Source of the DNA: Cymodocea nodosa
Taxonomy: Eukaryota; Streptophyta; Magnoliopsida; Alismatales; Cymodoceaceae
Assembly (NCBI GenBank): GCA_036874045.1
Contig: CM072339.1
Coordinates: 10,547,501-10,611,500, forward strand
Direction: 5' to 3'
DNA: 64,000 nucleotides
The translations under genes were made by a program, and so were the position numbers. The first letter of the stretch is position 1, and each line of letters opens with the position of its first letter. The notes beneath the pieces are model-generated. The model was not told where the DNA came from, made no database searches, and was given only the letters and a program-made list of their open reading frames with translations. This document shows positions 11,539 through 44,748 of the stretch, piece by piece.

Positions 11539-12850
11539 TGTTAGGACCTGATGGCTTACCAGAGGGTGAATGGTAATAATTTGTTTCTTAACAATAAATG
11601 GCTGATTGATAAAGAAAATTAACAAGCACATAATAAAAGTAATATAGACAAGGTTTTTAGGTGGTTCACCACTAACGACTAGTCCACCCCCAAGGGATAC
11701 TTGGCCTTCACTAAACTTTCACAAATTTACAAACACTTGTTTTGAGGTCAAAGCAAGAACCAATCAATCTGATTGAGCTTTTAGGTCATAGCTCCAACCA
11801 ACCTTTCACTAAAGTTTTTTTATTCGTGTACTTCAGTAACCACTTGCTTGAATGTATCAGAGTTGAGTGTGTGGAGAGCTTCTAAGTTTAAGTTTGTATA
11901 TGCTGATGATGATTTGATCTCGAAGACTTTCTTCTATTGAGCTTGGTGTATAGATTTGTATGAACAAAAGCTATCTGACTTTGTTGTCTAATGCTTGTAT
12001 ATATACCATTATGTGTAACGATCATATTTTCTCCTAACAGATGTATTCTACAGTACTTGCTAAAGTTTCAGACCCAAATTTAGTAAGTTACCATTCAGGG
12101 AGGTATTTTAAGATACCCTTTCGATTTTTTGGGTTTTTCGGAGGTTTAACAATGTAACTCTCCGAAGAATACCTGTAACTTAATGAAGAGTCACTTAAGT
12201 TCTTTTGCCACGTAGGACTTTAAGTCATACACATGTGGTGTTATAAGATCGTATACTTGTAATTATAACTCACCAAAATGTTCTTGACTATCGGATAGTT
12301 AGCTACAATAACCCTCTAATTTCCTTCTTTAAGGTTCCGACTACTTTCTTATTTCGGCATGTGCATAATAGGATAATTTAAGTTTCAGATACTTAAATCT
12401 GTAACCTATTGAAACTTCTTGTTTTTTGGATAGTTAACTTTCTAACTTTCTAAAAAGCCTTTTAAACATCTGTTTTGAATTTCTACACGTGGGAAATTCA
12501 CTAACTTAAGTTTCGGATAATTGGCTTTCCTAACCTTTCAAAATTCTTGACCTTTCGGATAGTTAGCGCCTTAACTCTTTGATCATTCAGTCAACTTCCT
12601 TTAAAATCCTTCCGAAGACCTTTTATTTTCGGATATTACTCTTCTAACTATCCAATAGTGCTTTGGCTACTTTGAACTGATTCTTCAGATACTTAAACCT
12701 ATAACTGTCTGATTTTCCTATGGCTCTATAGTAGTAATTTTTGAACTATTTGCATCGACTTCTATTCTTTTGCTGAACTGATATACCTAAGAAATACAAT
12801 TTGATTCCTCACATTGATTTTTGCATTATCAAAATCTAGAAGTCCTTTCA
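11539..12850 (-). repeat. B 5' LTR (1312 bp)
   Basis: It is bounded by TGAAAGGACC at 12850 and GGTCCTAACA at 11539. The U3-side half (about 12060-12780) is packed with copies of a motif around CGGATAGTTA and its complement TAACTATCCG, with variants such as CGGAGGTTTAAC. The pairs can fold as hairpins. The same motif fills the probable solo LTR at 32131-33100 and parts of the gypsy LTRs. A 49-bp piece of this LTR start recurs at 46924-46972. Confidence 0.9.
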
Positions 12851-13962
12851 ACATCCTCTAAAAAGTCTATAGTATGTAAGGACATTTCTAACTCTTCAAA
12901 CATTTTTGGTTTGAAAATATTTAATTGAGTATCCTCATTACCATATGCTAATTTCATTATTCTAGTTTTACAATTTATAACAACCCCTGACGTTACTAAA
13001 AATGGCATTCTCAAAATTAAAGATGTATCATGATTCTAATGCTTAATTTGTTGAGAATCTAAAATCACAATATCAATAAGATATATGAAGTTTTTGATTT
13101 TAATTAGGACATTTTCTATTTTTCTTCTAGGGTATCTTATACTTCTATCTGTTAATTGAATGACAGTCCTAGTAGGGATTAAGCCTTCTAATTTTAAAGA
13201 TGCAAATATATCACTAGGCATAACATTTATACCTACACCTAGGTCTATTAAGGTTCTTTCTAGAATGGTATTTCTTATAGTGCATGATACAACAAGGATT
13301 CCTGGATCAGATAACTTTTTAGGAATCTAAGGTAGAAATTTAGCACAAGGTGGCATTTTCTGTAATAAGTCTAACAAAGGAATGTTAACTTGTACTTTTT
13401 CAAAAATTTCTCTAATTTTTTCTTATTTTTTAGGAAATGTTTGTTGTAATCTTTCAGGATAGGGTGTTAATAATTGTAACTTACAAGATTCTTTTTCTTT
13501 CTTTTCACTCCTTTGATCATTTTTAGTCTCACTTTTAGATTTAAATTTTTCTTCATTGACTTCTAAGTTTTTAGATATTACTTATTCATTGTCATTTTGA
13601 ATTTTGTTCTTACTTAGCTCCACTTTGCTTTCTTTTTGAATTTTTGGTGGTATATTAGTTCCAAATCTTAATATTATACATACATCTTCTAGATTTTCAT
13701 TATTTTCATAATGTTTTTGTATTTCATTTTCTTGACTTCGATTTTCTATTGTTTCTAGTTTTAAATTACATTCTTTAACTACTATTTCATTGATATTTTC
13801 TTTTATCTGTATGTCTTACAAATTATGTAGATCTTCAACATTAAAGTTTTTATTTGTGTTTTCATTTTGCATAACTTGTAATTTCATTGTTAATTCATCC
13901 AATGCTTTTAATTTTCTTTCTAGATCATTTAGTCCCATTGCATTCAATTTTTGATCAATTTT
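12851..13962 (-). pseudogene. G1 gypsy linker and aspartic protease
   Basis: On the - strand from 13962: a Lys/Glu/Asn-rich segment with likely coiled-coil (LERKLKALDELTMKLQ), an acidic linker, then the conserved block VQVNIPLLDLLQKMPPCAKF, which in Athila/Tat elements precedes protease. It continues with DPGILVVSCTI and the protease core LIDLGVGINVMP, where the canonical D-S/L-G-A reads DLGVG, then QLTDRSIRYPR. Stops lie at 13036 and at several linker sites. It ends at 12851, where copia B begins. No capsid domain is present upstream of the protease. The right edge abuts the + strand LTR of G2. Confidence 0.85.
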
Positions 13963-15452: not shown

Positions 15453-15972
15453 TATCGAAGTATAGTATCAGTTCAACCGATAGAGAGAAAAAAAAGAAAG
15501 AAATTTTTTTTGGTTCAACCGAGGAATATAACAGTTCGATCGAAATTTTAAAATGTTGGAAAATTAAGAGTCGGTTAGACTAGAAATTCTTCAGTCTTGA
15601 TCGAAGTAAAAATTATTATTGTAAGTATTTTTATTATATATAATTTTCAAAAAGTCCGTTGAGTTACACTTAACTCAACGAACTTACTCCATTGAGTCTA
15701 GGATAAGTTAACGAACTTACCCCGTTGAGTTAACTATAACTCAATGGAGTACTGTAGTTAAGTCTACGAACTAAGTTCGTGGAGTTAACTGTAATTTCAC
15801 GGATGAGAGAGCGAGAGTTTTGCATGGGAAATGACCTAATTACCTGCTTAAACATAGGGCTTATTTATACTAAATTTAGGGTTTGGGGGCATTATCTGCA
15901 GAATCATTTAGAATATATAACAGTAGAGATCAAAGTGATTCTATTCCGTTTCATAACTCCATGATGAGAAAG
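15453..15972 (+). promoter_or_regulatory. G2 spacer with two hairpin module types before ORF3
   Basis: No gene. 15460-15600 carries GGTTCAACCGA-type modules; 15655-15805 carries four to five modules with CGTTGAGTTA/TAACTCAACG arms. 15806-15972 is a leader conserved with G1 (5850-6000) and ends at the ORF3 ATG. The order matches G1 and G3. Confidence 0.6.
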
Positions 15973-18188
15973 ATGACACCAGAATTCTAAGAGGATGTTG
16001 TTGACACGTCAGAATTTCTTAAAGATATAGAAGATTGACACACAAGGCAGAAAATTAGAAATACGACGAGGTAAAAAGAGCTACAAAAGGTAGAATCTGA
16101 CATTTTCTACTGGAGGAAAGTATTATTAGATTTAGGTATACAAATACCTCAGATTATAGAAACAATAATCAAAGTGGCTACGAAAGTTGCTATAAACAGA
16201 GAAAGACGAATTAGGCCAAATAACGAAGTTGCCCTAGAATTGATCCTACGTAAGTCTCGACTCTAGTTCAAAAGATGCATAGGTAGATGGGCTCAGCGGG
16301 CAATCTGAGAGCAACAAATGAAAGAAAATGAAGAACAGGTAACTAAAGACCTATCCTTGAGGAACAGTAGCCCAGACCTTCAGTTCCACCACCAAGGCCA
16401 TTAGAAAGAGCAGCAATTTTGGGGCCTTCTACTAAGGAAGAATTAAGAGAATTTCAAGAACTAGTTCAAATAGAAAAAGACCAAGGAGAACCAGAAGAGT
16501 TGGTAGTAGCTATAGCACATTTGGTGTTTGATGTACGGTGCAAAAAGAGGGCTGGAGAAAAGTTGAAAGCCTAATACAAAATTAAAATTGAACAGCATCA
16601 AGAAGCTATTGCCAAACCTATTGTAAGAGGAGTTGAAGCTGGTCCTTTGAGACCAACAATTTTAGAAAAAGTTAAATAGGAAGAGTGAGTACTTGTGGCT
16701 CAAAGGTCTGTAGAGCCTATTTTTGTAGATTTAATCTCAGAAGAAGAAGAGGAAGACCAGACACAATTAATCAGAAGAAGGAAAGGAAAATAGATAGTAC
16801 TTGAACATCAAGAAGAGATTAAATCTGAGATGTAAATATTAGTAGGGCCTGTAGAGCAAATTTTTGTAAACCTACTATCTAATTCTGAGGAGCAGGAGCA
16901 ACAACAACAAGAGCAAAGAGAAGAAGAAAAATAGGCTGAAACTAATTTGCATCCTGTACAAATAGAAATTAGGGTAGAAGCTAATTTGCTCGTAACTCTA
17001 TCCCAATCTGTCACAAAATCAAAAAGAATAGTGACAATGCAGTTTGGTAGTCAAGAGCAAGAAAAAAGAGAGGAAACTGAACAAGAAGCTGAACAAATAC
17101 AAATGGAACAAAAAAGAAATAACTCGACAGATTCCACTGAAGAGCAAAGAACTCTTCAGCAAATTTTGTAAAGAATTCAAGACAGAGTGGAGAGTTCTAC
17201 CAGCTCACCACTACAGACAAAAGCAGAAGTAAAAATGCAGGAATCTCTAAAGCATTTTCAGTCTATTCAAGTTCAGCACATGGAAGAGGAAGTTCAAGAA
17301 CAAACCCCTTTGGAGCAACAAATTCACATTCCTAACCCAACTGAAGCAACAGTTTTGAATGAAGTACACTTTTGGAGTTAGGAAGCATATAATAAATACC
17401 AAGAGATTAGGGGTTATGATAGTATATATAGTAGACTAGTAAATTGAGACAGTATGTAGGAAATTAATGATTTATTTGAGTTTCAAGGTATACTGTAGTT
17501 TATTTCTCAACAAAGAGGGCATGCAATATATGAGAATCTAGTGCCCTACTTTTATGCAAACTTAAGAGAAGGAGAAAGAGGATTAATTTCCAACGTGGAG
17601 TAACTTGATGTACAAATAACATCAGAGCTTCTCCACAACATTTTAGGATTGAAGAATGAGGGATTAGAAATTCTGGAAAGCACAACTGCAGTCAAGTGGA
17701 TAGAATAGATAATAAAGGATTGTTTAGCTATCAATCTTGGTGTGCTATTATTAAATAGACTGAAGCACTTAAATGATAAAACACACATGATAGATAACAT
17801 TTTGATTAAGATTGTCTACCAACAACAAGGCCATGATATAGAACTGAGTCAATTTGTCAAATGGGCCACATATGTAGTTGTGAACATAATTCAGATAAAT
17901 TGGTTTGCTATTTTTATGTCCAAGTTGAGAATAGTAAATAAGAAACTATTTTATGGAGATTTGATTCTACTACTGATGGTGGATAGTATTGACTTCACGA
18001 AATGGACATCTAAAAAGATAAAATCAAGAGCCATTTCAGTGAAGGAATACAGAAACTACAATTATGCTGCTGTTGAGATTGCTGAACCTTCTAGAGGCAT
18101 TATATGAGCTATAGAGAGGATAAACCAATTAGAGCAACAATTAAAAAAACTCCAGAAGGAAGTAGATGAACTTAGGAAGAAAGATTAA
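15973..18188 (+). pseudogene. G2 ORF3, large unidentified third ORF
   Basis: From ATG at 15973 (MTPEF then a stop) to TAA at 18186-18188, about 740 codons with many TAG/TAA and at least one frameshift. Visible parts are: an N-terminal helical region (VALELILRKSRL), a GPSTKEELREF segment, a long Glu/Gln-rich middle, a conserved globular part (YENLVPYFYANL, LLHNILGLKNEG, KLFYGDLI, DFTKWTSKK) at about 17530-18060, and a C-terminal coiled coil (QLEQQLKKLQKEVDELRKKD). The globular part resembles what is annotated as putative plant transposon protein domains; that is from memory. The third ORF of copia S2 is clearly related. Function unknown; no membrane segment, so an envelope role is unlikely. 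Confidence 0.75.
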
Positions 18189-19170: not shown

Positions 19171-20345
19171 ATGAGCACATGGATTCGTTCTCTTAGCACT
19201 AAGCGATTAGTAAGAACACCTACATAGGATTACTCAACACAAAGACGTACTGAAATATTTTTTGAATTGGACTTTTAACGAAATCCTTAGGGGTGTAGCT
19301 AACCTTTCTTTAAAAGAGAATGAAGATATGGCTACTCTAGTAGAGACACCATTAGGGGAGAATCTGTATCCTGAATTAGTTGATGAACCTTCATGTATTC
19401 GATTGTCAAACTTTGAGGGAGATAGGTTTGAATTGAAATCTAATTATATTAGTCAATTGCTACATTTTCATAGATTAGAAAGAGAGGATGCCTATTATTT
19501 CCTTGGAGAATTTAATGAAGTTTGTCAAATAATGAAAATGTTGAACATGAGTATAGATGCTATTAAACTTAGATATATCCCTTTTGCTTTAAAAGACATC
19601 TAAGAGATGGTTATATACTCTGTCACCTGATTCAATTTCTGCATGGACTGAATTTTGCTCTATTTTTCTGGAAAAATATTATCCAACACATCAAATGATT
19701 AAAAAGAAAAAGGAAATATTAATGTGTAACCAAAAATAGGGAGAATCATTCTAGAAATATTTTGAAAGATTTAAAGATTTACTAACTCAATGCCCACATC
19801 ATGCTATGAGTAAAGTACAATTAATAGGTATAATTTATGAAGGCATAGATGTTTCAACAAAATCTTTATTAGAATGTACTTGTCAGAATGAATTTTTAAA
19901 ACTGTGTAGTGAAGAAGCATGAGCATATTTAGAAAACTTTGCAAAAAGAACTACATAGTGGGAAAACTCTGCTGAAGCTATTATAGATAAAAGAATATTA
20001 CCAAGGGGAATGCATGAAATAGATTCAAGCACTACGCTTGAAGTTAAATTAACTGAATTAACAAAGAAAATAGAAGAGTTATCATTAAATCAAAAGTTAG
20101 CAGAAAAGAATGCAAATGTTAATGATTTAGATATAATTTATGCTAGAAACCAGAAAGATAACTTTGGAAATTCTTATAACCTTAATTAGAGAAGTCATCC
20201 GAGGTTATCTTAGAGAAACAACAATTTCTAGGGAGGAGAAAATATAAATGACAAAAATATAAGTTATGAAGCTTTAATTGAACAAGGATCTAGAATAGAG
20301 AAATTAGAAAAGATAATCTAACAATTAAACAATCATCTAGATCTT
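19171..20345 (+). pseudogene. G2 capsid-type gag, 3' truncated
   Basis: ATG at 19171 opens with MSTWIRSLSTKRLVRTP, shared by the other copies. It continues through the gag core (CIRLSNFEGDRFELK, EDAYYFLGEFNE, RYIPFALKD), breaks at about 19600 by a small deletion, then resumes (FCSIFLEKYYPTH, RFKDLLTQCPHH). It is the capsid domain of Athila/Tat gag (retrotransposon gag family), which would assemble the particle shell. Many TAG codons replace Gln or Trp codons of the G3 copy. It ends at 20345, where the - strand 3' LTR of G3 begins. Confidence 0.88.
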
Positions 20346-20580
20346 GTATATGGAGGATACTTAAGAATTTCACAGCCTGCAACTTACCGACAGTTCATAA
20401 ATGTACTAAATTAACATTAATTCCCTAAAATTAAGCAGATTCTTCAATTAAAGCATATAACAGTGCAATTATAACATAATAGCTTAATTCTCATATGATA
20501 AGCTAAATATTATGCAATTAACCATCATTTAACCGTTAATAATATGCACTTTTTCATTCTAAACACTTCCCCCATACCTA
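20346..20580 (-). repeat. G3 PPT and truncated 3' LTR
   Basis: On the - strand AGGTATGGGGGAAG (20580-20566) is followed by TGTTTAGAATGAAAAAGTGC at 20565, the LTR start. Only about 220 bp of LTR remain before the junction with + strand G2 capsid sequence at 20345/20346. Confidence 0.85.
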
Positions 20581-22314
20581 AATTTTACTAGTCCCTTAGC
20601 AAACTAAGATCTAATTAATTGGTCTTTCAAAAAGTGCTAGAATTAATTCTTCCTCTTTTGTTTTTTTTCTTCTGTTCAGCATAAACATATATTCTGTATT
20701 TTTCAGTAATCAACTTGCAAAGATATTTAGAATATATGTAAATTACGTACAAAGTATATCATCTTCATATAGGTGTTAATTATATTATCGTTTGTTCTTC
20801 TTTTCATCATCTGTAATCCTAAATTTTCCAATAAGTTTTCTAGAAGAAATTTCAACAACATACGAATCAAAATACAATCTAATTCAATCTGATTAAGACA
20901 AGTAGAATAAAGAATTGTATTTCCATTAAACAACTTCAAAAGTCAATTCCAGATTCATATTTCAGCAATTCTAGATAACAGAAAATATACTCGATTCATA
21001 AGATATCTATATTTCAGAAAACACTTGTATCTTTTCAGAACAATATATGTTTTTTTTTTTTTTGTACTTTAAAAGTTAATTTGACAATCTTGAATCATAC
21101 AAGAGCTTTCTAATGTACCCATGTAACGACCTTTTAGTCAACAATCCCAGATCTGATCAGGATCTTAGGTTGCCAAATTTTTAGAGTCCTTTTTCAGGTC
21201 AACAATCCTTACATACCTATATGCTCAAGTACAAAAGGCTCGTGATCAAACAAGTCAATAAACTCTCAAAATTTTTTTTTTTTTCATAATAAATGCACAT
21301 ACAAAACAAAGCATTAATCACATACTGTATATGCACGTATTTCATTAATACAGATGCAGTAAAACACCAATCTCATATAATCTTGCTTCTATCATTTATT
21401 AAAAATATGAATCCATAATAATAAGCTCATACTTTATCTGTAGTTTAATAAGATCTACACATAAATCATTCTACAAGTTCAATCAGCCAAAGTAAATGTA
21501 TCTTTCATCATATGTGTTTCATTTAATCTAGAATTCACATCTCAACTCCTTTAGGACTTCAGATAATTTTCTGATTATGCATTAAATATTCTGATTTCAT
21601 TTTAAAATCGTGAAAATGTTAAACTCATGAAATTCAGAAAAATCATAAGATACTATATCTAGACTTGCATAAATAGTAAATTCAATAGCATCTTATATAG
21701 CCTTCTAAATATAGCATTCAAGCAGGTTATAAAAATTTTACAGTCTCCTTTATTGGATAGTTACAGCAAGTTCATAAAAATTTTCAATTCCCTCAAAACT
21801 TTGCAGTACCATTTTAATTCCTTTAATTAACAAACTTACATGGCTGTTACTTTAATTACCTCCCCCCATACCTATATTTTGCATTGTACTCAATGTAAAA
21901 GATTTGACAATAAATACAGTAATTGTAGCAGGCATGAATAAAGTTTTGTTTGATTTAAAATTCATGATAAGTAATTGGTTACATACCTTGTTCCATTTGT
22001 ATCTCTTTCTGCATATTCCGATTTTTGATTCTGAAAAACTTTTCATTCCCACATAAACACAGAATATAAAACAAAATAACATTTAACAGATATTAATAAA
22101 TCAGTGTCTTGTGTGGAACCCAGACTCCTATGCCTTTGGTGGCTCACAAGCAAGCCAGTTGAATTCCCAGAATAGATACCAACAAACTGGATTGATATTT
22201 TGTTTTGTTTGTTTTTTTTTTTATAAAATAAACATGAAAACTTCAAAATTCTTTTTTTTTTTCTTTCTAAAAATAAATGCAGAATACACAACATTAAACA
22301 CACAAAATCACAGC
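20581..22314 (-). other. G3 conserved noncoding tail (block X)
   Basis: No gene. About 1.7 kb between F-box stop and PPT, conserved in G4 (34296-36047) and, for the part at about 20640-21480, in copia S2 (51250-52000). The best conserved core includes GATCACGAGCCTTTTGTACT and CTGATCAGATCTGGGAT on the element strand. A second purine tract (GGTATGGGGGGAGGT, about 21880-21862) lies near the start of this core region, so the block sits between two PPT-like tracts. Small open frames here differ between copies and look accidental. Confidence 0.65.
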
Positions 22315-23454
22315 TTAAGAACATGATTGAAAAGTAGAAACAAATGGAATAAATGTATCAGTCCAAGCAAACTTTTTAGGCATAGTTCTTCTTGCTATTA
22401 ATTCTATTTTAATGCAGTTCTTGTTCCTTTTTAATTTGTAAACATGCAATATATTATAAATTCCAAATACGAGTGTATTACCATTAATGATATGTAATGC
22501 AGAAATGGATCCTTTTTGGTTCCAAGGTAATGTAGTAGTTTCTATTTCTACATCTATTTCAATATACTCCTCTTCCCACTTCCATTCATTCATGTCTTCC
22601 ATAATCCATATTTGAAATTTCATCAGTTCATCCCACCATCTTATCAGACATAAAGTAGGATCATCTTCTTCATTATACCACATTCCTATTTGAATTTCAT
22701 TAAATTCTGCAGATGGTGGTTTAGCTATTTCACTCGGTACATGTAAAATTTCAATATAATCATCATAACTGTCTATGCTCACTATGTATAAATCAGATCC
22801 ATATGCTAATGATATCTTCGTGACTAAATAGATATATCCATCAAGTATGACATGTGTTTGGTTAATTAATGATTTCTGTCCTAGATATATTATAATGTTT
22901 TCATTCCAAGATCTGTTCAGAAAATTATACACACTTAAGCGTAAATCTTCACCCCAATTTCCTGTAGGTCTCCAATAATATAATTTTTCAGGAATTGCAG
23001 AATTTTTATCAGAAAATATTAAAGCTGACCCACAATTTTCAGTTGGTGCTTCAAATATATTAGGTCTTCCTATATTCCATTCTTCTCCTGTTATAGGATT
23101 TCGTATCAAAATATCAGGTAATGATAAACTTGCATACCTTGGTCTCGTCTTGTATATGATTAATCCTTCATCTATCCCCATAATATGACTCATTCCTTCT
23201 AATGCATTGGGTGGAATTCCAGTAGTTTCTTCCATAGCCAGATATTCATGGGTATTTGAACTACGATTAAATGACCTCCATATGAATCCATCTCTAATCT
23301 TAGTCATTTTTGCAGCTTGTAGTCCCTGAAAATATTTTTCTTCAATACAGTCTTTAATTTACTTTGATACACAACACAGCCTGCACATATCTTTAGCTGA
23401 CAAGTTACTTAGTACTTCCCTTAGTGCATCCATTGGTAATTGCATCAATTCCAT
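22315..23454 (-). pseudogene. F-box protein gene captured by G3
   Basis: From ATG at 23454 to TAA at 22315, 379 codons with one in-frame stop at codon 32 (GAA in the other copies). Residues about 5-45 form an F-box (LPMDALREVLSNL, AKDMCRLCCVSK), which binds SKP1 in SCF ubiquitin ligases. The rest resembles plant F-box-associated beta-propeller-like domains: IRNPITGEEWN, VYNFLNRSW, VILDGYIYLV and, at residues about 270-295, FQIWIMEDMNEWKWEEE. Such domains choose the protein to be ubiquitinated. There is no intron, as expected if it was picked up from an mRNA. Homologues lie in the same place in G4 and G5. The ORF is unusually well kept compared with pol. Confidence 0.85.
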
Positions 23455-23642
23455 TTGTCGATTCTATAAAACACAAATAAAAATTTAGCAGAGATAAAAA
23501 TTAACATAACTACTACACACCCTCGTGGAGTTAAGGCATAACTCAACGGACTAAGTTTGTTGAGTTAAAAATTAACTCTATGATACTATTAACTTAAAAT
23601 AAAACATATATACATACAGATAGTTACTTCAGATATGTTGCT
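23455..23642 (-). promoter_or_regulatory. G3 capsid-F-box spacer with hairpin module
   Basis: At about 23525-23585 two inverted-repeat modules with GTGGAGTTA/TAACTCAACG and GTTGAGTTA/TTAACTC arms sit between the capsid stop and the F-box ATG. G4 (37250-37315) and G5 (63735-63800) have modules at the same place. Confidence 0.6.
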
Positions 23643-24986
23643 TCATTCAGCTACCCTCCCAGAAGAGATATCAATTTCATTAACCGTTCTATTGATAGGA
23701 TTAGGTATAGCTTGTATTGGCAATCCTCCAGTAGGTCTAACTTCCATTGGTTCCTTCTGTCTAAGTGATATATTTCTATTCTGATTTTGATTTGCAGCAT
23801 TTCCAAATATAAATTCTAGATGATTGTTTACTTGTTGGATTATCTTTTCTAATTTCTCTATTCTAGCTCCTTGTTCAATTAATACTTCATAACTTATGTT
23901 CTTCTCATTTATATTTTCTCCTCCCTGGAAATTGTTGTTTCTCCAAGATAAATTTGGGTGATTTCTCCAATTAAGATTATAAGAATTTCCCAAGTTATCT
24001 CTCTAGTTTCTAGCATAAATAAGATCTAAGTCATTTATGTTTGTATTCTTTTCTACTAGCTTTTGATTTAATGATAACTCTTCTATTTTCTTCGTTAATT
24101 CATTTAATTTCACCTCAAGCATAGTATTGGAATCTATTTCATGCATTCCTCTTGGCAATATTCTTTTATCTGCAGTAGCTTCAATCGAATTTTCCCACTA
24201 TGTAGTTCTTTTTGCAAAATTTTCTAAATATGCCCATGCTTCTTCACTACATAAATTTAAAAATCCATTTTGACAAGTAGATTCTAATAAAGATTTCGTT
24301 GAAACATCTATGCCTTCATAAATTATGCCTATTAATTGTGCTTTACTCATTGCATGATGTGGACATTGAGTCAGTAAATCTTTAAATCTTTCAAAATATT
24401 TCCAGAATGATTCACCCTGTTTTTGGCTACACATTAATATTTCTTTCTTCTTTTTAATCGTTTGATGTGTTGGATAATATTTTTCCAGAAAAACAGAGCA
24501 AAATTCTGTCCATGTAGAAATTGAATCAGGCGACAAAGTATATAACCATCTCTTAGCTGTATCTTTTAAAGCAAAAGGGATATATCTAAGTTTAATAGCA
24601 TCTATACTCATGTTCAGCATTCTCATCATTTGACAAACTTCGTTAAATTCTCTAAGGAAATAATAGGCATCCTCTCTTTCTAATCCATGAAAATGTGGCA
24701 ATTGACTAATATAATTAGATTTCAGTTCAAACTTATCTCCCTCAAAGTTTGGCAATCGAATACATGAAGGTTCATCAATTAATTCAGGATACAGAATCTC
24801 TCCTAATGGTTTTTCTACTGGAGTAGCCATTTCTACGTTCTCTTTTAAAGAAAGGTTTGCTACACCCCAAAGAATTTCGTTAAAGTTTAGTTCAGAAAAT
24901 TTTTCAGTACTCCTCTACAATGAAAATTCCTGGATAGGTGTTCTTACTAATCGTTTAGTGCTTAGAGAACGAGTCCATGTGCTCAT
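23643..24986 (-). pseudogene. G3 capsid-type gag, full length
   Basis: From ATG at 24986 (MSTWTRSLSTKRLVRTP) to the stop at 23643, 448 codons, interrupted only by three TAG codons where relatives or context indicate Gln. Residues about 95-250 hold the retrotransposon gag core (RYIPFALKDTAKRWLYTLSP, WTEFCSVFLEKYYPTHQ, YFERFKDLLTQCPHH). A helical segment (MLEVKLNELTKKIEELSLNQ) and an Asn-rich tail follow. There is no zinc knuckle; that motif is in a separate ORF next to the PBS. The protein would form the particle shell. It is placed after ORF3, unlike gag in ordinary gypsy elements, where it is first. Confidence 0.9.
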
Positions 24987-25920
24987 AAATAAATAGCAGA
25001 AGATTAATTACATACCAGTCTGAAGCTTTCCATTCTATAAATATTTGTTGTCGGATGAAGGTTGAATCAGCTGCTTCTCCTTCCAGTTCCTCCAACGCTT
25101 TCTCCTTTCTTTTAAAAGTGCTGGTAACTCGTAAATAACATTCTGTTTCATATATATACTACGCATCCATAAAGTGAATAAATCTCGTTGCAAGAACGTG
25201 TCCTACAATGTGCATCGTGGTTCCTATTTTTATGGGTACGTGTACCACTACTAATTTCAAATTTTGGTAACCGCTAAACCGACGAAGTTTCATTTGTGGT
25301 TAAAAGAATAACCGTTCTGCTTAATCCATGAACTAACATCATTGAGTTACAAATTACTCAATAGAACATAGTCAGTTACTGTTGCTAACTCCACGGACTA
25401 ACTTCATTGAGTTACAGATAACTCAACGGAGTGACCTTATACTATATTAATGACCTCGTGGAGTTACGGTTAACTCAACGGACATACTTCTTTGAGTTAA
25501 CACTTGGCAACTTCTAAGTTTCACTCTCGTAAGTTTTCTATTCTTTTTTTCTTTCTTTGTTTTTCATTCTGCTAATTGTAATAAAGTTAAATCTATGTCA
25601 TTAATGCCTCATTTTGATTAAAATATATTTAAATCTGAACATTATATAAAGATTTAACTTGCAGGTCATTTTATGTTATGTAGAATTTACATTTTACCTT
25701 ATAACATGTAGAAATTTTTAAGCAGTTATCCTGTCATTCAGCAAATTGTAAATCTGTTACATATTCATAAAGTTCCACAAATTACATAATATTCAATAAA
25801 TTCCATTCATTCCACATCCAAATATGTATGAAAATTGCATCTCAAAAAATTATATTCATTAATATGAATCAATTACATTACAAGTACATCATACAATTTC
25901 ATACAATTTTACACAAGTAG
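24987..25920 (-). promoter_or_regulatory. G3 ORF3-capsid spacer with hairpin modules
   Basis: No gene. A leader conserved with G2, G4 and G5 (24987-25310), then a cluster of CGTTGAGTTA/TAACTCAACG modules at about 25320-25500, then AT-rich DNA up to the ORF3 remnant. Confidence 0.6.
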
Positions 25921-25990
25921 ACGAACAATACAATTTAATCTTTATGCCTAAGTTCATCTACTTCCTTCTGGAGTTTTTCTAATTTTAGGT
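25921..25990 (-). pseudogene. G3 ORF3 remnant, last codons only
   Basis: The - strand encodes a stretch like KLEKLQKEVDELRHKD followed by a stop, the C-terminal coiled coil of ORF3. All of ORF3 upstream is gone, and the integrase-ORF3 spacer follows directly, so about 2 kb was deleted here. Confidence 0.8.
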
Positions 25991-26550
25991 CTTAGCTACA
26001 GTACTTCGTTGAGTTACAGTTAACTTAATAGAATAAGCTCGTTGACTAACTCAAGACTCAACGGAGGAAGCTCGTTGAGTTAAGCGTAACTCAACGGATT
26101 CCGCGTACAAGCAATTATAATAATAAAAATATTACAGAGAATAGTTTTTCTATTTTTTTACCGGTTTAATCGATATTATGCTTCGGTCAGACCTAAATAT
26201 TTTTTATTTTTCTTTCGGTTGAACCGATACTATGTTTCGGTAAAACCAATATTTTTTTCTGAAAATTAATATACAATTTTTTTTCTGGTTTAACCGATAC
26301 TATGCTTCGGTCAGACCTAAATATTTTTTATTTTTTTATTTTTCTTTTGGTTGAACTGATACTATGTTTCGGTAAAACCAATATTTTTTTCTGAAAATTG
26401 ATATACAATTTTTTTAATGTTCCGGTCATACCGATGGATCTAGTGAGTTGAATCGCAACTATTTTTATGTTTTTTATATATTTTTAATGTTTTATTATTA
26501 TATTATTATATATATATATATATATATAAACATAAAAACTGATTTCTTAC
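25991..26550 (-). repeat. G3 spacer: hairpin modules, two 0.12-kb tandem units, TA repeat
   Basis: 25995-26105 holds CGTTGAGTTA-type modules. 26157-26415 is a tandem duplication of a unit of roughly 120-130 bp, each with a GGTTTAACCGATAC/TATGCTTCGGT half and a GGTTGAACCGATAC/TATGTTTCGGT half. About 26505-26528 is a TA run. The same module families stand between integrase and ORF3 in G1 and G2. Confidence 0.75.
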
Positions 26551-27303
26551 TAAGTAAAGCTCGAGTAGTCCTCTACTTTGACTTCTTCTATAATTCCAAA
26601 GGAGCTTTTTGGTGTTTTTAGAATAGGTTTAAGTCTTTGTTCATTTACTTTAAATATATTCTGATTTTTAGGATTTTCAATTTCAATAGCTCCATAAGGA
26701 TAAACATTTCGAACTATGTAAGGTCCTGCATCTAGATCTTAATTTTCCTAGATGGTTATGGAGTTTAGCCATATAAAGATATACTTCTTGTCCTATTTCA
26801 AAGCTTTTAGGAATAATTTTTCTATCATGCTAGAATTTAATTTTCTCTTTTTCTCTTACAATCTTCGAATAAGCTTCATTTCTAAATTCTTCTAATTCAA
26901 TTAGTTGCATTTTCCTATTTTCAGCAGCTTGATTTAAATTAGTGTTCAGAGTTTTTAATGCCCAATAAGCTTTATGTTCTATTTCAGCAGGTAAATGACA
27001 ACTTTTTCCATATAGTAACCTAAAAGGTGACATACCTAAGCTCGTTTTATAAGCAGTTCTATAAGCCCAAAGTGCATCTATCAATCTATTAGCCCAATCT
27101 GTTCTAGTAGGATTTACTACTTTTTTTAAGATTAATTTAATTTGTTTGTTTGCACTTTCTACTTATCCACTTGTTTGCGGATGATATGATGTTGCAATTT
27201 TGTGGTTTATTCCATATTTCTTCATTAAGGCTTCAAAACTTCTATTACAGAAATGAGTTCCTCTATCACTGATAATAGCTTTAGGTATTCCAAATCTGGC
27301 AAA
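26551..27303 (-). pseudogene. G3 Ty3/gypsy integrase, core end and C-terminal part
   Basis: The - strand reads FARFGIPKAIISDRGTHFCN with the catalytic Asp, then YHPQTSG, a TAA in place of the near-invariant Gln, and VES with the catalytic Glu. [19 protein letters not shown] and [17 protein letters not shown] follow. A second stop replaces Trp before HDRKI (G1 keeps the Trp). A two-base loss at about 26727 shifts the frame before the NPKNQNIFKVN tail. The N-terminal zinc domain and first Asp are deleted. It joins the zinc-knuckle ORF through a 19-bp duplicated filler at 27304-27322. Confidence 0.92.
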
Positions 27304-27322
27304 TATTACAGAAATGAGTTCC

Positions 27323-27579
27323 AGTCTGTCATAGCTATCCCAAACTTCAGTGTCTCTCATCATATTACACATTCTATACTGACCATCAGTTGGGTAAACT
27401 ATAGGATTCTCATACTCGGCTCTATTATATTGAGGATAATTCATTTGTTGTTCATGGGATCTAACAATCTGTAAATGTCTCAATTTCAAACAATCAGAAA
27501 TGTCGTGTCCTTCAGAATTGCAGAATTCACGTATGCTAATTAAAGGTTTCAGAAATCTTTGAGCATAAGCATATGCCAT
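27323..27579 (-). pseudogene. G3 zinc-knuckle ORF right after PBS
   Basis: ATG at 27579 starts MAYAYAQRFLKPLISI, followed by a zinc knuckle of the form CX2CX4HX4C in which the first Cys reads Arg (REFCNSEGHDISDC). The copy at 30640-31154 keeps the Cys (ICEFCN). Only about 115 bp separate PBS and this ATG, and no capsid sequence lies between. The ORF continues (VWDSYDRLE) until the deletion junction at 27322. It would be the nucleocapsid part heading the pol reading frame; the linker and protease seen in G1 (12851-13962) would follow in an intact copy. Confidence 0.78.
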
Positions 27580-27693
27580 ATTCTCAATTACAGAAGAAAA
27601 CACACAACTCTGGCTATTAAAATGAAACAGCTCTAACAGTTACTTATATCTATTCAATTCAATTCAATTCACTTCGACTCAATTCAATTCAAT

Positions 27694-27711
27694 TCCCCGG
27701 CAACGGCGCCA
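27694..27711 (-). other. G3 primer binding site
   Basis: On the - strand TGGCGCCGTTGCCGGGGA lies 7 bp after the LTR end. This 18-mer is the hallmark PBS of plant Athila/Tat gypsy elements (tRNA-Asp type from memory). An AATTC-type short repeat follows at 27652-27693. Confidence 0.93.
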
Positions 27712-27718
27712 TAAAACT

Positions 27719-29593
27719 TGTTTGGCTTTCCCAACACTTCACTAGAAAAACTTGGATTTGTTACTTCTATTTTTACTTAGTTAATTTATCTTTATGCCTA
27801 TTCTTTCTTTTAGAAGTAAACAAACAACCTTTAATACAATTTAGATATTAATTCCAATTTGTACTTTAACTGTAAGTACACAATGTCTATTGTATCAGTG
27901 TGCAAGTACAGGTCGATCCCACAGGGAATTGCTGATGAATTTAAGAAATGTTTGATTGTGAACAATTCAAATTTATATTCAATAAGCACTCCATTGAGTT
28001 ACAGTTAACTCAACGGACTATCCTCGTGGACTTAAGTTAACTCTACGAGCCTGTCTCTTCTTTATAATACTACTATTTACAGAGGAATTCGGCCAACTAT
28101 TGGGCGATTCCATAGATTGTAAATAACATCAATTAAGCTTTTTAATGCTAGTTAATATTGGATTTATCATTAAGCAATACTAACATTCAGATGATTCAAA
28201 CAGTAACCATTAAAATCTTTAAGTTTTTTTGTACGAACCAATTTCAGTAAACTGTAAAATTAAAACTAACATAAAACAATCATAAAACTGATACAGATAA
28301 CATTAATCACGATACAACACAAATAATACAACACTCAAATACAACATACAAACAAAGATAAATTGTTTTTGGTATTTTTGTTTTGATGTGAACATGGAAA
28401 TGGGCGAAAGGTGAAATGTAAAGTAATCTCACTTGATAGTAAATACTTCTGACACTACTTGCAACGCGATTACACCACTAAAAATTAAACTACTTACAAT
28501 TCTGTCTCCTCTCCCTATAGAATCGCGAGTCTAGAATTGCAAGATGATCTCCTCTTCAACATACAGGCATCAACCCAAAACCAAGGCTAAAAGCTTTACG
28601 ATCTCTTGAAATATGAGTCGGCGCTTGGTGAAAATGTCTTCCCTTCTCGCGACGCGATCACTCCTCATAGTGGTTGTCAGGCACTGTGTTTGGCTCGGAA
28701 TCGACTTGACATCAGGCAAGTATCCTCACAGACCTCCGATGATTGGTGATTATGGTGGTGATAACGATGGTTGGTGTGATACTTCGGAGAATCGTCGATA
28801 CTGTCTGCAGAAAGCTCGGTGCTCCTCCTCTGTATACACTGGCCGTCCATCGATCACACACCATTTCTTCTTTTTTTCTTCTTTTCTTTTATATTTCTTC
28901 AGTAGTAACTGCTTCTACTTGAATGATCAGTTGGATTTCCTTCCTTCAGATCAACGGCGATGATTTCTTTCTCCCTATGCGATTGAATTCCTACGTGATA
29001 CGTGCAAACGTGGTTTTTCCTTCCAACTATCTGTTTCTGCAACCGCTATAGTGGCATATTAGAAAATATATAGTCCGTGGAGTTACAGATAACTCAACGG
29101 ACTTTCTTCGTTGATTTAACTATAAAACACGTGCAAAAATAACAACTTAAGTTTATAACGCTAACCTAACGTGTTGCCTTAGTGTTCAATATAGCAACTC
29201 AACGCGTACAGTTATGCTAACTTAACGAGTTATAACTTAAGTAAATCTACCAAATCTCAACACGTGTACATCTGGAAATAATAACATGTTCTCTCTAAAC
29301 ATAATTGTTCGGCAATTTAAACATAACTATCCAATACATATTCAGTCTATTAAACATAATTGTCTGAAATATCAGAAAATTCGGATACTTAAGAATTTCA
29401 CAGCCTACAACTTACCGACAGTTCATAAATGTACTAAATTAACATTAATTCCCCAAAATTAAGCAGATTCTTCAATTAAAGCATATAACAGTGCAATTAT
29501 AACATAATGGCTTAATTCTCATATGATATGCTAAATATTATGCAATTAGCCATCATTTAACCATTAATAATATGCACTTTTTCATTCTAAACA
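27719..29593 (-). repeat. G3 5' LTR (1875 bp)
   Basis: Starts TGTTTAGAATG (29593) and ends GCCAAACA (27719), with short inverted termini TGTTT/AAACA. Inside, in sense order: CGGATAGTTA-type motifs, CACGTG and AACTCGTTAAG-type motifs, a CGTTGAGTTA hairpin (about 29070-29110), a GA/CT-rich middle, a second hairpin pair (27985-28050) and a conserved stretch with GGTCGATCCCACAGGGAA (complement, about 27911-27928). It contains no gene; the frame open at 28613-28963 on the other strand is incidental. Confidence 0.9.
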
Positions 29594-30639: not shown

Positions 30640-31154
30640 AAAGACACTAGTTGTCTGATCTAACCTTTTACATAAATACAATTTTCATTATGGTTTTTTT
30701 CGTTTCATATATAATATCAATTTTAGGTTCTAAATATTCTTCCCTATAATTTAATTAGTTGAATTCTTGTTGATGATACATGTATTATTCTAGTTTGTCC
30801 ATGTTTTACTCTAAACTACGCTCAAGTCTGTCATACCTATCCCATACTTCTTTATCTCTTAACATAGTACCTATTCTAAACTAACCATTAGTTGGGTAAA
30901 CTATAGGATTTTCATACTCAGCTCTATTATATTTAATATAATTCATTTATTGTTCATGTGATCTAACTATCTGCAATTGTCTCACTTTCAAATAATCGTA
31001 AATGTCCTTACCTTTCAAATTGCAGAATTCACATATGCTAACTATAGGTTTCAGAAATCTTTGAGCATAACATATGCCATATTCTCAATTATATAATAAA
31101 AACACACAACACTCCCTCTAATATTAAAACAAAACATCCCTCACAGTTGCTTAG
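30640..31154 (-). pseudogene. Second copy of gypsy zinc-knuckle ORF
   Basis: Homologous to 27310-27640, read on the - strand, with the first knuckle Cys kept (ICEFCNLK) but the later positions damaged (KDIYDY). It extends past the point where G3 is deleted (30640-30830), so it shows sequence that normally follows, though full of stops. It lies directly after the LTR that serves as the 3' LTR of G4. The PBS expected between them is not recognisable. Confidence 0.72.
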
Positions 31155-34100
31155 TGTTCGATGTGAAAATCTATTTGATTTGTTTTTATGTTTATATTAA
31201 TAAATTCTTTTAGAAGTAAACAAACAACTTTTCACACAAATTAGATATTAAGTCTAATTTGTACTTTAATTGCAAGTGCACAATATATATTGTATTTGTG
31301 TGCAAGTATAGGTCAATCCCACAGAGATTGAGTAAGAATTGTGTACTATTTTTATTTTTATATTGGAGTTCATATGTATTTAGTTAAGTACTTCGTTGAG
31401 TTATAGTTAACTCAATGGACTTAGTTCGTGGAGTTATAGTTAACTCCATGGATTAACCTCGTAGACTTAAGTTAACTCCACGAGCCTACCTTTTAGTTAA
31501 ATACTATTATTCATAGAGGAATTCGGCCAACCATTGGACGGTTCCACAGAATATAAATAACATCAATTAAGCTCTTTAATGTTAGCTAATCTGAGATTTG
31601 TCATTAAGTAACACTAACATTCAAATATTCCAAACAGTAACCATTAAGATTTTTAGTATTCTGTACGAATCAAGTTTAGTAAACAATAAAACTATTTTCT
31701 TTTTTTTGAATCAAACAAACATATAACATTCACATTACTAATATTGATGGCATTAATCACGATAATAAATAAACAATACAACACTTTAATACTAAATATA
31801 AACATAGATAATTAATTGTTTTTGGTATTTTTGTTTTGATATGTTCCTAAAGATAAACAAAAGGTGAAATGCAAAAATCTCTCTCGATAGTAAAAACCTT
31901 CGATCACTACATGCGACGTGATTACACCACTAGAAACTTAATCACTTATAGTCTTGCCTCCCCTCCCTATAGAATCATAAACCAAGACTTGTAAGTTGAT
32001 CTCCTCTTCAGTATACTAGCATCAACATGAAACCAAGGTTTGAAGCTTTACGATCTCTTGAGATATGAGTCGTTGCTTGGTGAAAATGACTTCCCTTCTT
32101 GCGACGCGATCACTCTTCATAGTAGTTGTCATGTTACGATTAAAACCGATTGTTCAGTCAACTCTCTATGGCACGATTCTGAAACACTCACTTCTTAACT
32201 CATCGAAACTAGAAAGTGAAGAGAAAGAGGAAGAAATAACACTGAAGACAAGGATTTACGTGGTTCAGCAACTGCTTACATCCATGGAGAGTTGAGGGTT
32301 CTACTATGAGCTTCGGCACACTCAACCATAATGTTTTACAACATCATAAAGGTTTATATACTACCCAACTTAGGGTTAATAAACCTTTAATTACATTCAA
32401 GCCATTACAGTAGAGAAATAAAGCTTCGGAGAAGGGACTCTCAATTTTAGAGCCTTATCTTCTTATCTTTCCGAAATCTGCAATATTTCGGATAGTTACA
32501 GACTTAACTATCTGAAGAAATTCTTCTTCCTTCATTCATTGTAACAGGTAGTACTGTAATAGGCTAACTGTCCGGAGAGATTTGGTATTTCAGATAGTTA
32601 CAAACTTAATTGTCCGAAAACTCACTTACTTCTCTCTCTCTATCCTTTCAGAAGGTTCTACCATTAACTCTCTGAAAACTGCATGTCTTTCAAATAGTTA
32701 CTTCTTAACTATCTGAAAACTCACTTAAGTGTCTCTTTAGTCATTTCGGAAGGTTCTACCGTTAACCTTCCGAAAGCTTATGATTTTTGGATAGTTACTG
32801 CTTAACTATCTGAAGATCCACTTAAGTTACTACTTTTCGAATACTTGGCTTCTTAACTGTCTGATCGTACACATAAGTGTCCTTTAAGTCATTCCAGATG
32901 GTTACAACTAGTAACCCTCTGAAATCTTCTAACTTTCAGATAGTTAACTCAAAGCCTCCGACTAAAACTTTATTTTCAGATACTTAGGCCTGGTAACCTA
33001 CCAAAAATATAAATTTGCCAGATACTTACTATTAACAAGCTTCTGAATGAACCTAGACATCTTGTGGCATACTCTACACTTGTACTGTTTGCCCTAATAT
33101 GTTAGTCACCATGTTTGGCTTGGAATCGACTCGACATCTGGAAAATATCCTCATAAACCTCTGATGGTTCGTGATTTAGGTGGTGGTGTGGAGCTTTAAG
33201 GAACTTCCGACGCTTCTTGCTATTAGCATGGTTCTCCACCTCTCTCCCCACACTTTCTTCATCTTTCTCCTCTTCTTTTATATTTCTTTCAGTAGTAACT
33301 ACTTCTGGTTAAATGATAGGTTGGATTTCCTTCATTCATATCAATGATGATGATTTCTTCTTCATTACACGAGTGAATTCGTACGTGATATGTGCAATCG
33401 TGGCTTTCCTTCGTATTGTATCTTCTCGTAACTCTCCTATTCTTGTACTTGCAAAACACATGACTAAACAAGAAAACTTATCTGTTCATTAGTCATTTTA
33501 TAAAACTTGAATAGTTATCTATCCATGCGTATAAAAACTCAAATAGTTATCTAACTCTTTGATTTTTTATTACCGAACGTACTAGAAAAACACGTGAAAA
33601 CTTAAAACATTAAATCACATGTGTAGATAACTTAACTATACAAGCTTTTAACATAACTCTTCTACTAAAATGAAATGTTAACTATTTGAATGTTTACATT
33701 ACCTATTTTTGCATAATACTAACACAACGTGTTACCTTAGTGTAATTTCATGTAGCTCAACACGTATAGCTATATTAACTTAACGAGTTATACATGTGCA
33801 ACTCACGTAATATAGTAAAATATTTAAATTCAACACGTGCATAATTCTTAACTTAACGAGTTTAGATGTTTCGGATGGTTACAACTATAAGTATCCAAAA
33901 CTCAAACACATTTCAGATAGTTACCAAATAACTTACTAAAAATCCACTTAAGTCATGCATTAAGGTTTCAACACGTGTACTCTAGGAAATAATAAAATTT
34001 TCTTTAAGTGTTTAAAACATAACTATCTAGTACATGAAATGTAACTCTCCGAAATAACAAATATTTTGGAGACTTAGGAATTAAAAAGCCTGTAACTCAC

Positions 34101-34278
34101 CGATAGTTCAGAAATGTACTTAATAAACACTAATTCCTTGAAATTATGCAGATTCTTTCATTAAGGCATATAATAGTGCAATCATAACATAATGACTTAA
34201 TTCTCATATGATAAGTTAAATATTATGCAATTAACAATCATTTAACCGTTAATATTATGCACTTTTTCATTCTAAATA
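31155..34278 (-). repeat. G4 3' LTR, interrupted
   Basis: Starts at 34278 (TATTTAGAATG, the TG changed to TA) just after the PPT of G4 and runs to about 31155. A foreign sequence at about 32131-33100 interrupts it. Without this the length is about 2.1 kb. Hairpins lie at 31390-31490. It is followed on the - strand by the 5' coding leader of a gypsy element, so one LTR has internal sequence on both sides. Confidence 0.8.
32131..33100. mobile_element. Probable solo LTR of another retrotransposon
   Basis: About 970 bp absent from the other gypsy LTR copies interrupt the segment between GTTGTCA and TCACCATGTTTGG. It starts TGTTACGATT, has no coding capacity and contains GATTTACGTGGTTCAGCAAC, a segment type common in plant copia LTRs. 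It is filled with CGGATAGTTA-type motifs as in the LTR of B. Exact ends and target duplication are uncertain (GTCA/GTCA is possible). Confidence 0.6.
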
Positions 34279-36047: not shown

Positions 36048-37177
36048 TTAAGAACATGATTGAAAAGTAGTGACAAATGGAATAAACGTGTCAGTCCAAG
36101 TAAACTTTTTAGGCATAATTCTTCTTGCTATTAATTCCATTTTAATGCAGTCTACTCTCCTTTTTAACTTGTAAACTTGTAGTATGTTATCAATACTAAA
36201 TATAAGTGTATTACCATTAATGAATTGAAATGCAGAAAGGGATTCTTTTCTGTTCCAAGATAATGTAGTTGTTTCTATATTTCAATGTATTCCTCTTCTC
36301 ACTTCCATTCATTTAGGTCTTTCATAATCCATATTTGAAATTTCATCAATTCATCCCACCATCTTACTAAACATAAAGTAGGATCATCATATTCATTATA
36401 CCACACTCCTAATTGAATTTTATCATGTTCTGCAGATGGTGGTTCAACTATATCACTAGGTATAGGCAATATTTCTATAAAGTCATCATCATAACTATCT
36501 ATGCTTATTATGTATAAATTAGATTTAAATGCAACTGATATATTTGTGACTAGATATATATATCCATCAAGTATGACATGTATGTTGTTAACTAATGCTT
36601 TTTGTCCTAGATATATCATAGTATTTTTAGTCCAAGATCTATTCAGAAAATTATACACACTTAAGCATAAATTCTCATCCCAATTTCCAGTTAGTCTTTA
36701 GTAATACAATTTTTTAGGAATGGTCAAATTTTTATCAGAAAATGTTAAAGCTGACCCACAATTTTCAGTTAGTACTTCAAATTTATTAGACCTTCCTATA
36801 TTCTATTCTTCTCTAGTGATAGTATTTCTAATCAAAATATCGGGTAATAGAATTGCATACCTTGGTTTGGTTCTGTAAATAATTAATCCTTCATGTATCC
36901 CCATAATATGATCTATTTCTTCTAATGTATTTGGTTGAATTCCAGTAGTTTCCTCCATATTTAGATATTCATAGCTGATTGAATTACGATTAAATGACTT
37001 CTATAAAAATCCATCTCTAATATTAGTCATCTTTGAAGCTTGTAGTCCATGAAAATATTTTTCTCTAATACATTCTTGAATTTCTTCTGACAGACAACAC
37101 AATCTACATAGATTTTTAGCTGATAAGTTAGTCAATACTTCCCTTAGTGCATCCAGTGGTAATTTCATCAATTCCAT
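36048..37177 (-). pseudogene. F-box protein gene in G4
   Basis: ATG at 37177 opens with MELMKLPLDALREV; the F-box reads AKNLCRLCCLSEEIQECI, without the stop seen in G3. Further down, several frameshifts and stops break it; the longest open part is 36299-36658 (VYNFLNRSW-like MYNFLNRSW, VILDGYIYLV, FQIWIMKDLNEW). The last codons (TFQSCS) and stop match G3. About 50 bp near 36280 (the WEEEYIEID region) are missing. An SCF-type adaptor by family, but not functional here. Confidence 0.85.
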
Positions 37178-39497: not shown

Positions 39498-39513
39498 TTG
39501 TCTCTCTCTTAAA

Positions 39514-44732: not shown

Positions 44733-44748
44733 AACTTATAGTTCTTTT
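44733..44748 (+). repeat. LINE target site duplication, right copy
   Basis: Same 16 bases as 39482-39497, directly after the A run. Confidence 0.95.

Follow-up and report, generated by a model that had tools for sequence, protein, structure and literature searches.

The DNA considered here is a 64-kb window of the Cymodocea nodosa genome (C7:10547501-10611500, in an assembly of 374.6 Mb and 28 contigs), which is a nest of plant-type retroelements. The subject is one long terminal repeat (LTR) retrotransposon family within it, most likely a high-copy Athila/Tat-type Ty3/gypsy family, whose copies G1 to G5 point to a capsid gene (gag) that lies behind pol. This pol-then-capsid layout had been reported in an initial annotation of the window and is confirmed. 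In the copy G3, a single LTR pair encloses, in this order, a primer binding site (PBS), an open reading frame (ORF) with a zinc knuckle, an integrase remnant, the end of a further ORF (ORF3), the capsid gene, an F-box ORF and a polypurine tract (PPT). The features of G3, from its 5' end, are:

27719..29593, minus strand: 5' LTR, TGTTTAG...AACA, about 1.87 kb, with start and end read and the PBS following; 97.2% identical to the 3' LTR fragment over 211 bp
27695..27711, minus strand: PBS, TGGCGCCGTTGCCGGGG, a 13-mer without mismatch
27320..27579, minus strand: start of the Pol ORF: a zinc knuckle, in which one Cys is replaced, preceded by 19 residues and followed by a deletion; knuckle ORFs at 8 other loci are 91-96% identical
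26553..27318, minus strand: integrase remnant (end of the catalytic domain and C-terminal part); PF00665, E 3e-8; 78% DNA identity to G1
25938..25992, minus strand: last ~18 codons of ORF3, the remainder missing; from alignment to G4 at 45086 and G2 at 18131
23643..24986, minus strand: capsid/gag gene, a 448-codon span with three in-frame stops and without a zinc knuckle; PF03732, E 8e-21
22315..23454, minus strand: F-box ORF (F-box and F-box-associated region) between capsid and PPT, with one in-frame stop; TIGR01640, E 5.5e-6, below its cut-off
20566..20577, minus strand: PPT, GTATGGGGGAAG, read in the sequence
20355..20565, minus strand: 3' LTR, truncated after 211 bp; pairs with the 5' LTR

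The two LTR pieces, at 97.2% identity where the corresponding LTR starts of G2 and G4 reach 76-80%, thus belong to one insertion. A repeat of about 260 bp was ruled out as the G3 LTR, as the PBS lies about 1.87 kb from the LTR start. The PBS core TGGCGCCGTTGCC is found at 27711-27699 with zero mismatches (0.70 matches expected at up to three mismatches). The ORF adjoining it begins MAYAYAQRFLKPLISIREFC... and reaches its knuckle after 19 residues, with capsid further downstream, as the initial annotation had read it. The 448-codon capsid ORF that it had placed downstream of integrase and ORF3 does lie behind the end of ORF3 (24986-23643), but the frame is not open, and position 20346 is not an LTR terminus, since the 3' LTR breaks off at 20355. 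G3 is a decayed copy: its knuckle ORF is joined to the integrase by a deletion, ORF3 is nearly gone and the capsid frame contains stops.

The remaining copies in the window are also fragmentary, and their parts are:

12804..13326, minus strand: G1 protease (DLGVGINVMP motif); first part 68-92% identical at 8 G-family loci
6533..7069, minus strand: G1 integrase, C-terminal part; 78% DNA identity to G3
4413..6336, minus strand: G1 post-integrase gap and ORF3; 68% to G2 15458-17443
15458..18130, plus strand: G2 integrase-ORF3 gap and ORF3
19214..20354, plus strand: G2 capsid, truncated at its junction with G3
46923..46970, minus strand: G4, 48 bp of protease DNA between the truncated 5' LTR and ORF3; 96% to G1 12851-12804, E 3e-16
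44733..46909, minus strand: G4 ORF3
37042..39500, minus strand: G4 capsid and its upstream gap; a long interspersed nuclear element (LINE) separates ORF3 from the capsid part
33100..34278, minus strand: part of the G4 3' LTR with the PPT ahead
59021..61178, plus strand: G5 ORF3
62290..63670, plus strand: G5 capsid, ends approximate; 83% to the capsid side of G3
30822..32131, minus strand: further LTR and knuckle-ORF fragment of the same family as G3; 75% (LTR) and 83% (knuckle ORF) to G3

The orders given in the initial annotation hold for these copies as well: G1 reads protease, integrase, ORF3, the first two separated by a Copia element, and G2, G4 and G5 read ORF3 and then capsid. The 48 bp of protease DNA ahead of ORF3 in G4 indicate that this copy, too, once had pol before ORF3. 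The LINE inserted between its ORF3 and capsid (DUF4283, E 4.6e-16) occupies about 39500-44730 on the plus strand. A 553-codon open ORF at 52468-54126 (plus strand) has a C-terminal end like ORF3, and 670 bp of it match G2 14784-15453 at 96% identity. In addition, a 1.6-kb repeat at 48002-48659, 55292-56836 and 57334-59010 (plus strand) and at 3931-4216 (minus strand) shares a 105-bp stretch (93-95%) with the LTR of the family and is possibly another LTR type.

Complete copies were found elsewhere in the assembly. A profile search with PF03732 gave 4640 first-look candidates, of which 150 were scored and ten fetched; together with six loci picked by reverse transcriptase (RT), namely L028-L031, L039 and L040, these make 16 examined loci. 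Eight of the ten capsid loci carry knuckle, protease, integrase, capsid, F-box, PPT and the start of the 3' LTR on one strand. Seven of these eight ordered G copies have parts of a 5' LTR (the exception being L005), seven have a detected ORF3 (all except L003), and five have a PBS at up to three mismatches, with one more, L013, at four. The protein piece from protease (PR) to RT is covered over 1140-1151 of its 1155 codons in seven copies and over 703 in L021, which has internal deletions in pol. The border between PPT and LTR, GGGGGAAG followed by TGTTTAG, is present in 9/10 capsid loci at up to two mismatches, and perfect 5-bp duplications (GTATT, AGTAT, TTCTC, ACCAC) flank four of the five loci whose flanks were checked; in the fifth, L007, no LTR start was recognised. 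The Kimura two-parameter distance (K2P) of six G pairs, taken over the LTR parts that both members share, is 0.037-0.055. In one locus, L012 (4082 and 7865), a second 3' LTR of another subtype, with its own PPT, stands in tandem behind the first. The uninterrupted copies by which the initial annotation had proposed to check its reading, with LTR termini and a 5-bp duplication, thus exist, and they place pol before capsid.

Protease is seen in 14 of the 16 loci, and capsid lies before it in none, so the finding that would have spoken against the layout, capsid between PBS and protease, is absent from what was examined. PBS and protease occur together in 11/16 loci, and in all 11 the PBS is followed by Pol; no extra ORF stands upstream of gag by the 5' LTR, as it would in an Ogre element. 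Among the RT-picked loci, five of six have protease, none with capsid ahead; L030, L031 and L039 belong to the window's family (L039 as a pol-first member), and L040 is a pol fragment. Further observations came with the RT search. At C2:8762456-9723729, twelve RVT_1 matches with frames of 633 or 637 codons follow one another on a single strand at distances of 48-219 kb; the one examined (L030/L035) proved to be a family copy with pol first, and a large repeated array may exist there. The strongest RVT_1 matches often lie near contig ends (for example C7:10449, C10:21223, C18:15521263-15547302), as if from LINE-like elements at chromosome ends; an open frame of 7668 codons is found at C10:21223, and the first 2.5 kb of C7 and C10 are N.

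A comparison of match positions provides a check of the order that is independent of how the loci were selected. It used the best-scoring matches to knuckle (150), capsid (150) and F-box (117), which are those nearest the queries, and its counts are therefore lower bounds. Among knuckle-capsid pairs on the same strand within 15 kb, capsid is downstream in at least 11 and upstream in 0, with one further pair on opposite strands; simple arithmetic gives about 0.45 same-strand downstream pairs for 150 and 150 random sites. Likewise, the F-box is downstream of the knuckle in at least 17 pairs and upstream in 0, and it lies within 2 kb downstream of capsid in at least six. Three other capsid/F-box pairs fit no single unit, one with the F-box upstream at 13.5 kb and two on opposite strands. 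Since complete copies elsewhere and the position comparison agree, the pol-before-capsid order is not due to chance.

The layout is not confined to the window's family. A diverged lineage, L019/20, has 2.6-kb LTRs that are 93.6% identical, a PBS, Pol and then gag, with a target duplication in which 4/5 bases match. Its Pol frames contain the knuckle CLKCSMNDHTIDDC, LRSGR, PR, RT, RNase H (RH) and integrase (INT), with stops between the pieces, and its downstream gag has capsid, its own knuckle and NPGWRNHPNFSW. In another lineage, L028/32, the LTRs differ at 4 of 1537 sites (99.74% identical) and are flanked by the duplication CTAAG, and an intact ORF of 1491 codons encodes a knuckle-PR-RT-RH-INT Pol with the knuckle at its head. 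The gag frame of this copy begins 306 nt behind pol and is open for 371 codons, with an apparent continuation in another frame. A second copy of this type, in the tail of L008, reads integrase and then gag, the gag being 94% identical. The L028/32 copy looks recently inserted, and the reversed order therefore appears to be a working arrangement. Comparison with the G proteins detected neither ORF3 nor F-box in these two lineages, although diverged versions could escape it.

These lineages also bear on how the layout arose. Between the three lineages, Gag identity is 36-38%, so the layout is either old or arose repeatedly. In the L028 and L019 lineages, Pol is headed by a knuckle and an RSG motif without WRNHP, and gag keeps capsid, knuckle and WRNHP; the window's family also has knuckle and RSG in Pol, but its gag, which contains WRNHP, is without a knuckle, the only such gag among the three. 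In this family, the Pol knuckle is mutated in the L031 piece compared and intact in the L011 and L039 copies. The initial annotation had taken gag to be split into knuckle and capsid. That description stands as far as the window's family lacks a knuckle in gag, but sister-lineage gags carry a knuckle while Pol has another, so that a gag moved behind a Pol with its own knuckle fits better. Because the head of Pol and the downstream gag overlap in landmarks, the comparison suggests that gag was copied rather than cut, with a 5' copy reduced to knuckle and RSGK fused to protease and a fuller copy downstream. On this model, gag would have been copied behind integrase, the 5' copy would then have lost capsid, and the downstream copy of the window's family would have lost its knuckle. 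An RT tree of 93 rows joins the window's family to the L028 lineage (support 93/89), and a single origin of all three lineages is possible.

Whether the downstream genes encode functional proteins was assessed by the ratio of nonsynonymous to synonymous differences (pN/pS) against other family copies, with bootstrap intervals. The PR-RT piece has a ratio of 0.32, integrase one of 0.37-0.44 and capsid one of 0.32-0.35; two ORF3 pieces (ORF3a and ORF3b) come to 0.20-0.50 and 0.30-0.34, and the F-box to 0.54-0.61, all with intervals below 1. For the N-terminal piece of ORF3 (0.47-0.81), 1/5 intervals extends above 1, as does 1/5 for the C-terminal part of gag (0.35-0.74); coverage of the knuckle piece was too small for this comparison. 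These ratios indicate purifying selection on Pol, capsid, ORF3 and F-box, and the downstream genes would therefore have been made and used. Within the young G copies the ratios are higher (knuckle 0.53, pol 0.54, capsid 0.45), as expected after insertion. A structural model of the capsid built from 13 sequences is of low confidence (mean predicted local distance difference test score, pLDDT, 61.9); the PDB entries that it matches best are Arc, PNMA2 and retroviral capsids, though no match reaches E 0.001.

The F-box ORF is a regular part of the family. A search with it gave 6723 first-look candidates; the best 117 were scored, and all 117 span at least 346 of the 347 query residues at 93-100% identity, 100% being G3 itself, which rules out a one-off transduced fragment. 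The F-box domain is recognised in the L008 copy (PF00646, E 4.5e-10). No homologs of the ORF were found in public proteins at E 1e-3, and none of the L008 copy in PDB sequences at E 0.1. The F-box protein P0 of poleroviruses acts against host silencing factors, and one may speculate by analogy that the protein encoded here could do likewise.

As the initial annotation pointed out, a capsid in this position would need a separate expression route, which follows from the ORF structure, and its interpretation of the order as permuted is supported. Pol is not fused to Gag in any of the three lineages, the frames being separate, and since a gag behind pol permits no Gag-Pol fusion, Pol would be made as its own polyprotein from the full-length RNA. 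Its N-terminal zinc knuckle may hold it to that RNA, so that Pol gets packaged; such a tether would account for the knuckle at the head of Pol in each of the three lineages and suggests a likeness to foamy viruses. Gag, ORF3 and the F-box protein would be translated from separate downstream mRNAs. For the window's family, the source of the Gag mRNA would most likely be a promoter in the ORF3-capsid gap. This gap repeats a palindromic LTR motif, GTTGAGTTA...TAACTCAAC, which was not found in coding parts (two L021 matches labelled pol lie in its LTR). The motif occurs twice in the INT-ORF3 gap (6/6 copies) and three times in the ORF3-capsid gap (8/8 copies). In 7/8 ORF3-capsid gaps, TATATAT stands 204 nt after the last motif, L011 having this stretch deleted, and in 7/14 LTR-start matches examined, TATAAAA stands 205 nt after the motif. 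As the copies are related, this agreement in spacing is one coincidence, not many. The explanation as a whole, namely an order LTR-PBS-Pol-ORF3-Gag-F-box-PPT-LTR with a separate Pol, Gag from separate downstream mRNAs and a gag copied behind integrase, seems to us probable.

Several observations weigh against it. No gag-first element was found in the 16 loci, in which ordinary families were not specifically sought, so a positive control from the same assembly is lacking, and the ten capsid loci were selected for long capsid frames. All eight G copies have stops in Pol, and the pooled pN/pS within young G copies is 0.78 for the F-box and 1.18 for the C-terminal part of gag. L017/18 reads ORF3-capsid-F-box-PPT-LTR without detectable pol within 10 kb upstream, and L029, a third L028-type copy with the same Pol start, is followed on its strand by about 9 kb in which no capsid is seen. 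With L019 added, the RT tree places the three lineages on one side of a branch with support of 50/85. As to the promoter, the remaining LTR-start matches are without the motif or have other spacing, a TATA-like word follows the motif in 0/5 INT-ORF3 gaps scanned, and the capsid-F-box gaps scanned lack the motif at up to five mismatches. TATA-like words are common in AT-rich DNA, and the Pol-gag gaps of the sister lineages have no strong match to their LTRs, the best ones being 16 bp long (E 0.02 and 0.06).

The same layout could be served by another source of the second mRNA, a leader donor spliced to an acceptor ahead of gag (likewise for ORF3 and the F-box), as for retroviral env. The gag frame of L028/32 begins where an env-type gene would, a short way behind the pol stop, splicing is reported for barley Bagy2 (PMC7264820), and the INT-ORF3 gap offers no TATA-like word behind its motif. 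However, reading the gaps by eye, with no systematic scan, showed no obvious conserved donor/acceptor pair, and the gap before capsid in the window's family has both LTR-type motifs and a TATA-like word. For capsid, an internal promoter is our first choice and splicing, a serious possibility that we hold to be the less likely one, our second. A different view takes the pol-first copies to be non-autonomous and to parasitise an autonomous relative with gag first, their own downstream gag being a passenger or decoy. The stops in Pol of the G copies would agree with this, and non-autonomous plant elements are common (PMC11963269). Nevertheless, the young L028/32 copy combines an intact Pol ORF with near-identical LTRs, capsid has a pN/pS of 0.32-0.35 against family copies, and the 16 loci, which do not amount to a dedicated search of ordinary families, include no gag-first relative; we regard this view as improbable.

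The order itself might be artificial, produced by nesting, tandem recombination or misassembly, for which one could cite the heavy nesting of the window, the truncated and partly deleted G3 and the tandem second 3' LTR of L012. Unlinked complete copies share the order and have target duplications, and the position comparison agrees with them; such an artefact is refuted as a source of the layout and, in our judgment, has next to no chance of being the answer. Nor is it credible that the family is of Ogre type, with pol lost from G2, G4 and G5 and the upstream pol fragments of G1 and G3 unrelated to it. G2, G4 and G5 alone do read ORF3 and then capsid behind an LTR or LTR fragment, but the protease remnant of G4 before ORF3 and the fuller copies, which place pol before ORF3, refute it.

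When public proteins were searched with the L028 Pol, 282 matches were obtained, of which 120 were listed. The capsid hidden Markov model matches 70 of the listed homologs; capsid precedes the protease motif in 57 and follows it in one, and no protease motif was found in 12. The order capsid, WRNHP, RSGK, protease motif is kept by all 24 listed homologs that show the four landmarks, and in 19 of these a knuckle stands between the first two; none of the 50 listed homologs without capsid has a knuckle in its first 60 residues. The single reversed case, P0095 (Vitis vinifera A5B1Q4), is a gene model in whose single predicted frame capsid comes after protease; it either is a fused prediction or hints at reversal elsewhere. 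The RT of the pol-first elements falls among gag-first plant homologs, which we take to be OTA (Athila/Tat) elements, and the PBS core is presumably of the tRNA-Asp type. In OTA elements, the PBS is described as not tRNA-Met, with Asp among those used (PMC6317226). The elements have the LTR pair, PBS, PPT and 5-bp target duplication of Ty3/gypsy elements and their pol order PR-RT-RH-INT (Pfam order in the L028 Pol ORF; PR before INT at 8 G loci), but gag before pol, a feature taken as defining, is found at 0 of the 14 protease-bearing loci. We file the pol-first layout as new among Athila/Tat-type gypsy elements, and we found no description in the open-access literature of a pol-before-gag or reordered element, or of an F-box gene in such elements.

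Gag before pol has been treated as fixed in Ty3/gypsy elements and retroviruses, since it is usually by way of a Gag-Pol fusion that Pol enters particles and that the Gag:Pol ratio is set. The elements described here thus amount to a natural experiment in which the Gag-Pol link is cut, yet the elements spread, apparently recently. They raise the questions of how an unfused Pol gets packaged, what route leads to expression of a gag placed downstream and in what way the genes of a reverse-transcribing element can be reordered. They also carry a warning for annotation, as methods based on gag-first order may label such copies broken, nested or non-autonomous.

Compared with known plant elements, the family resembles Athila/Tat in its long LTRs, its PBS of Asp type (a presumed assignment), the gag landmarks WRNHP and PNP, the Pol landmarks RSGK, PR, RT, RH and INT and the 5-bp duplication, and differs in that gag is its own gene behind pol and Pol begins with a zinc knuckle. 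Pfam finds just two overlapping RT_RNaseH models on the L028 Pol, the mark of Tat being an additional RNase H (aRH). Ogre elements, in which the extra ORF lies before gag near the 5' LTR, are likewise plant non-chromovirus gypsy elements with an extra ORF, but here ORF3 stands between integrase and gag, and pol comes first. The usual organisation is gag and then pol after the 5' LTR (PMC7264820; PMC6317226), and extra ORFs are described around gag-pol in PMC6317226 and in the Retand study (PMC11963269). ORF3 resembles the env-like ORF of Athila-type elements as a sense extra ORF behind integrase (PMC7264820), with the differences that gag follows it and that the ORF3 pieces scanned have no match to Athila ORF-1 (PF03078) at E 0.1, a weak criterion given that PF03078 is reported in only 16% of Athila elements (PMC6317226); one ORF3 piece weakly matches PF20167 (E 1.1e-4, below cut-off). 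G2, G4 and G5 resemble TR-GAG elements in having gag without pol near an LTR. Other copies hold full pol between their LTRs and G4 keeps protease DNA, so these short forms look like deletion products. An orchid gypsy lineage with an AlkB ORF also carries a cell-type extra gene as a fixed part (PMC9289625), but it has a single gag-pol ORF, its extra gene is a demethylase, and the text on it does not mention an F-box.

A parallel for the proposed expression lies outside plants. In foamy viruses gag precedes pol, and Pol is made from spliced RNA. Foamy Pol is reported to be expressed separately and packaged with the aid of RNA that Pol and Gag both recognise (PMC3196705), and foamy Gag is described as without Cys-His motifs (PMC4198681). 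The elements described here share with them a Pol without Gag-Pol fusion (PMC3196705), in our case as separate reading frames, and, in the window's family, a Gag without a knuckle (PMC4198681), the Gag of the sister lineages having one; they differ in that Pol is nearest the 5' end (env was looked for no further than ORF3). It is tempting, though rather doubtful as a complete account, to picture a plant clade that uncoupled Pol from Gag in the manner of foamy viruses, with a knuckle by which Pol may package itself, an internal promoter for Gag formed from duplicated LTR motifs and, in one high-copy family, a conserved F-box protein that might target host silencing factors for degradation.

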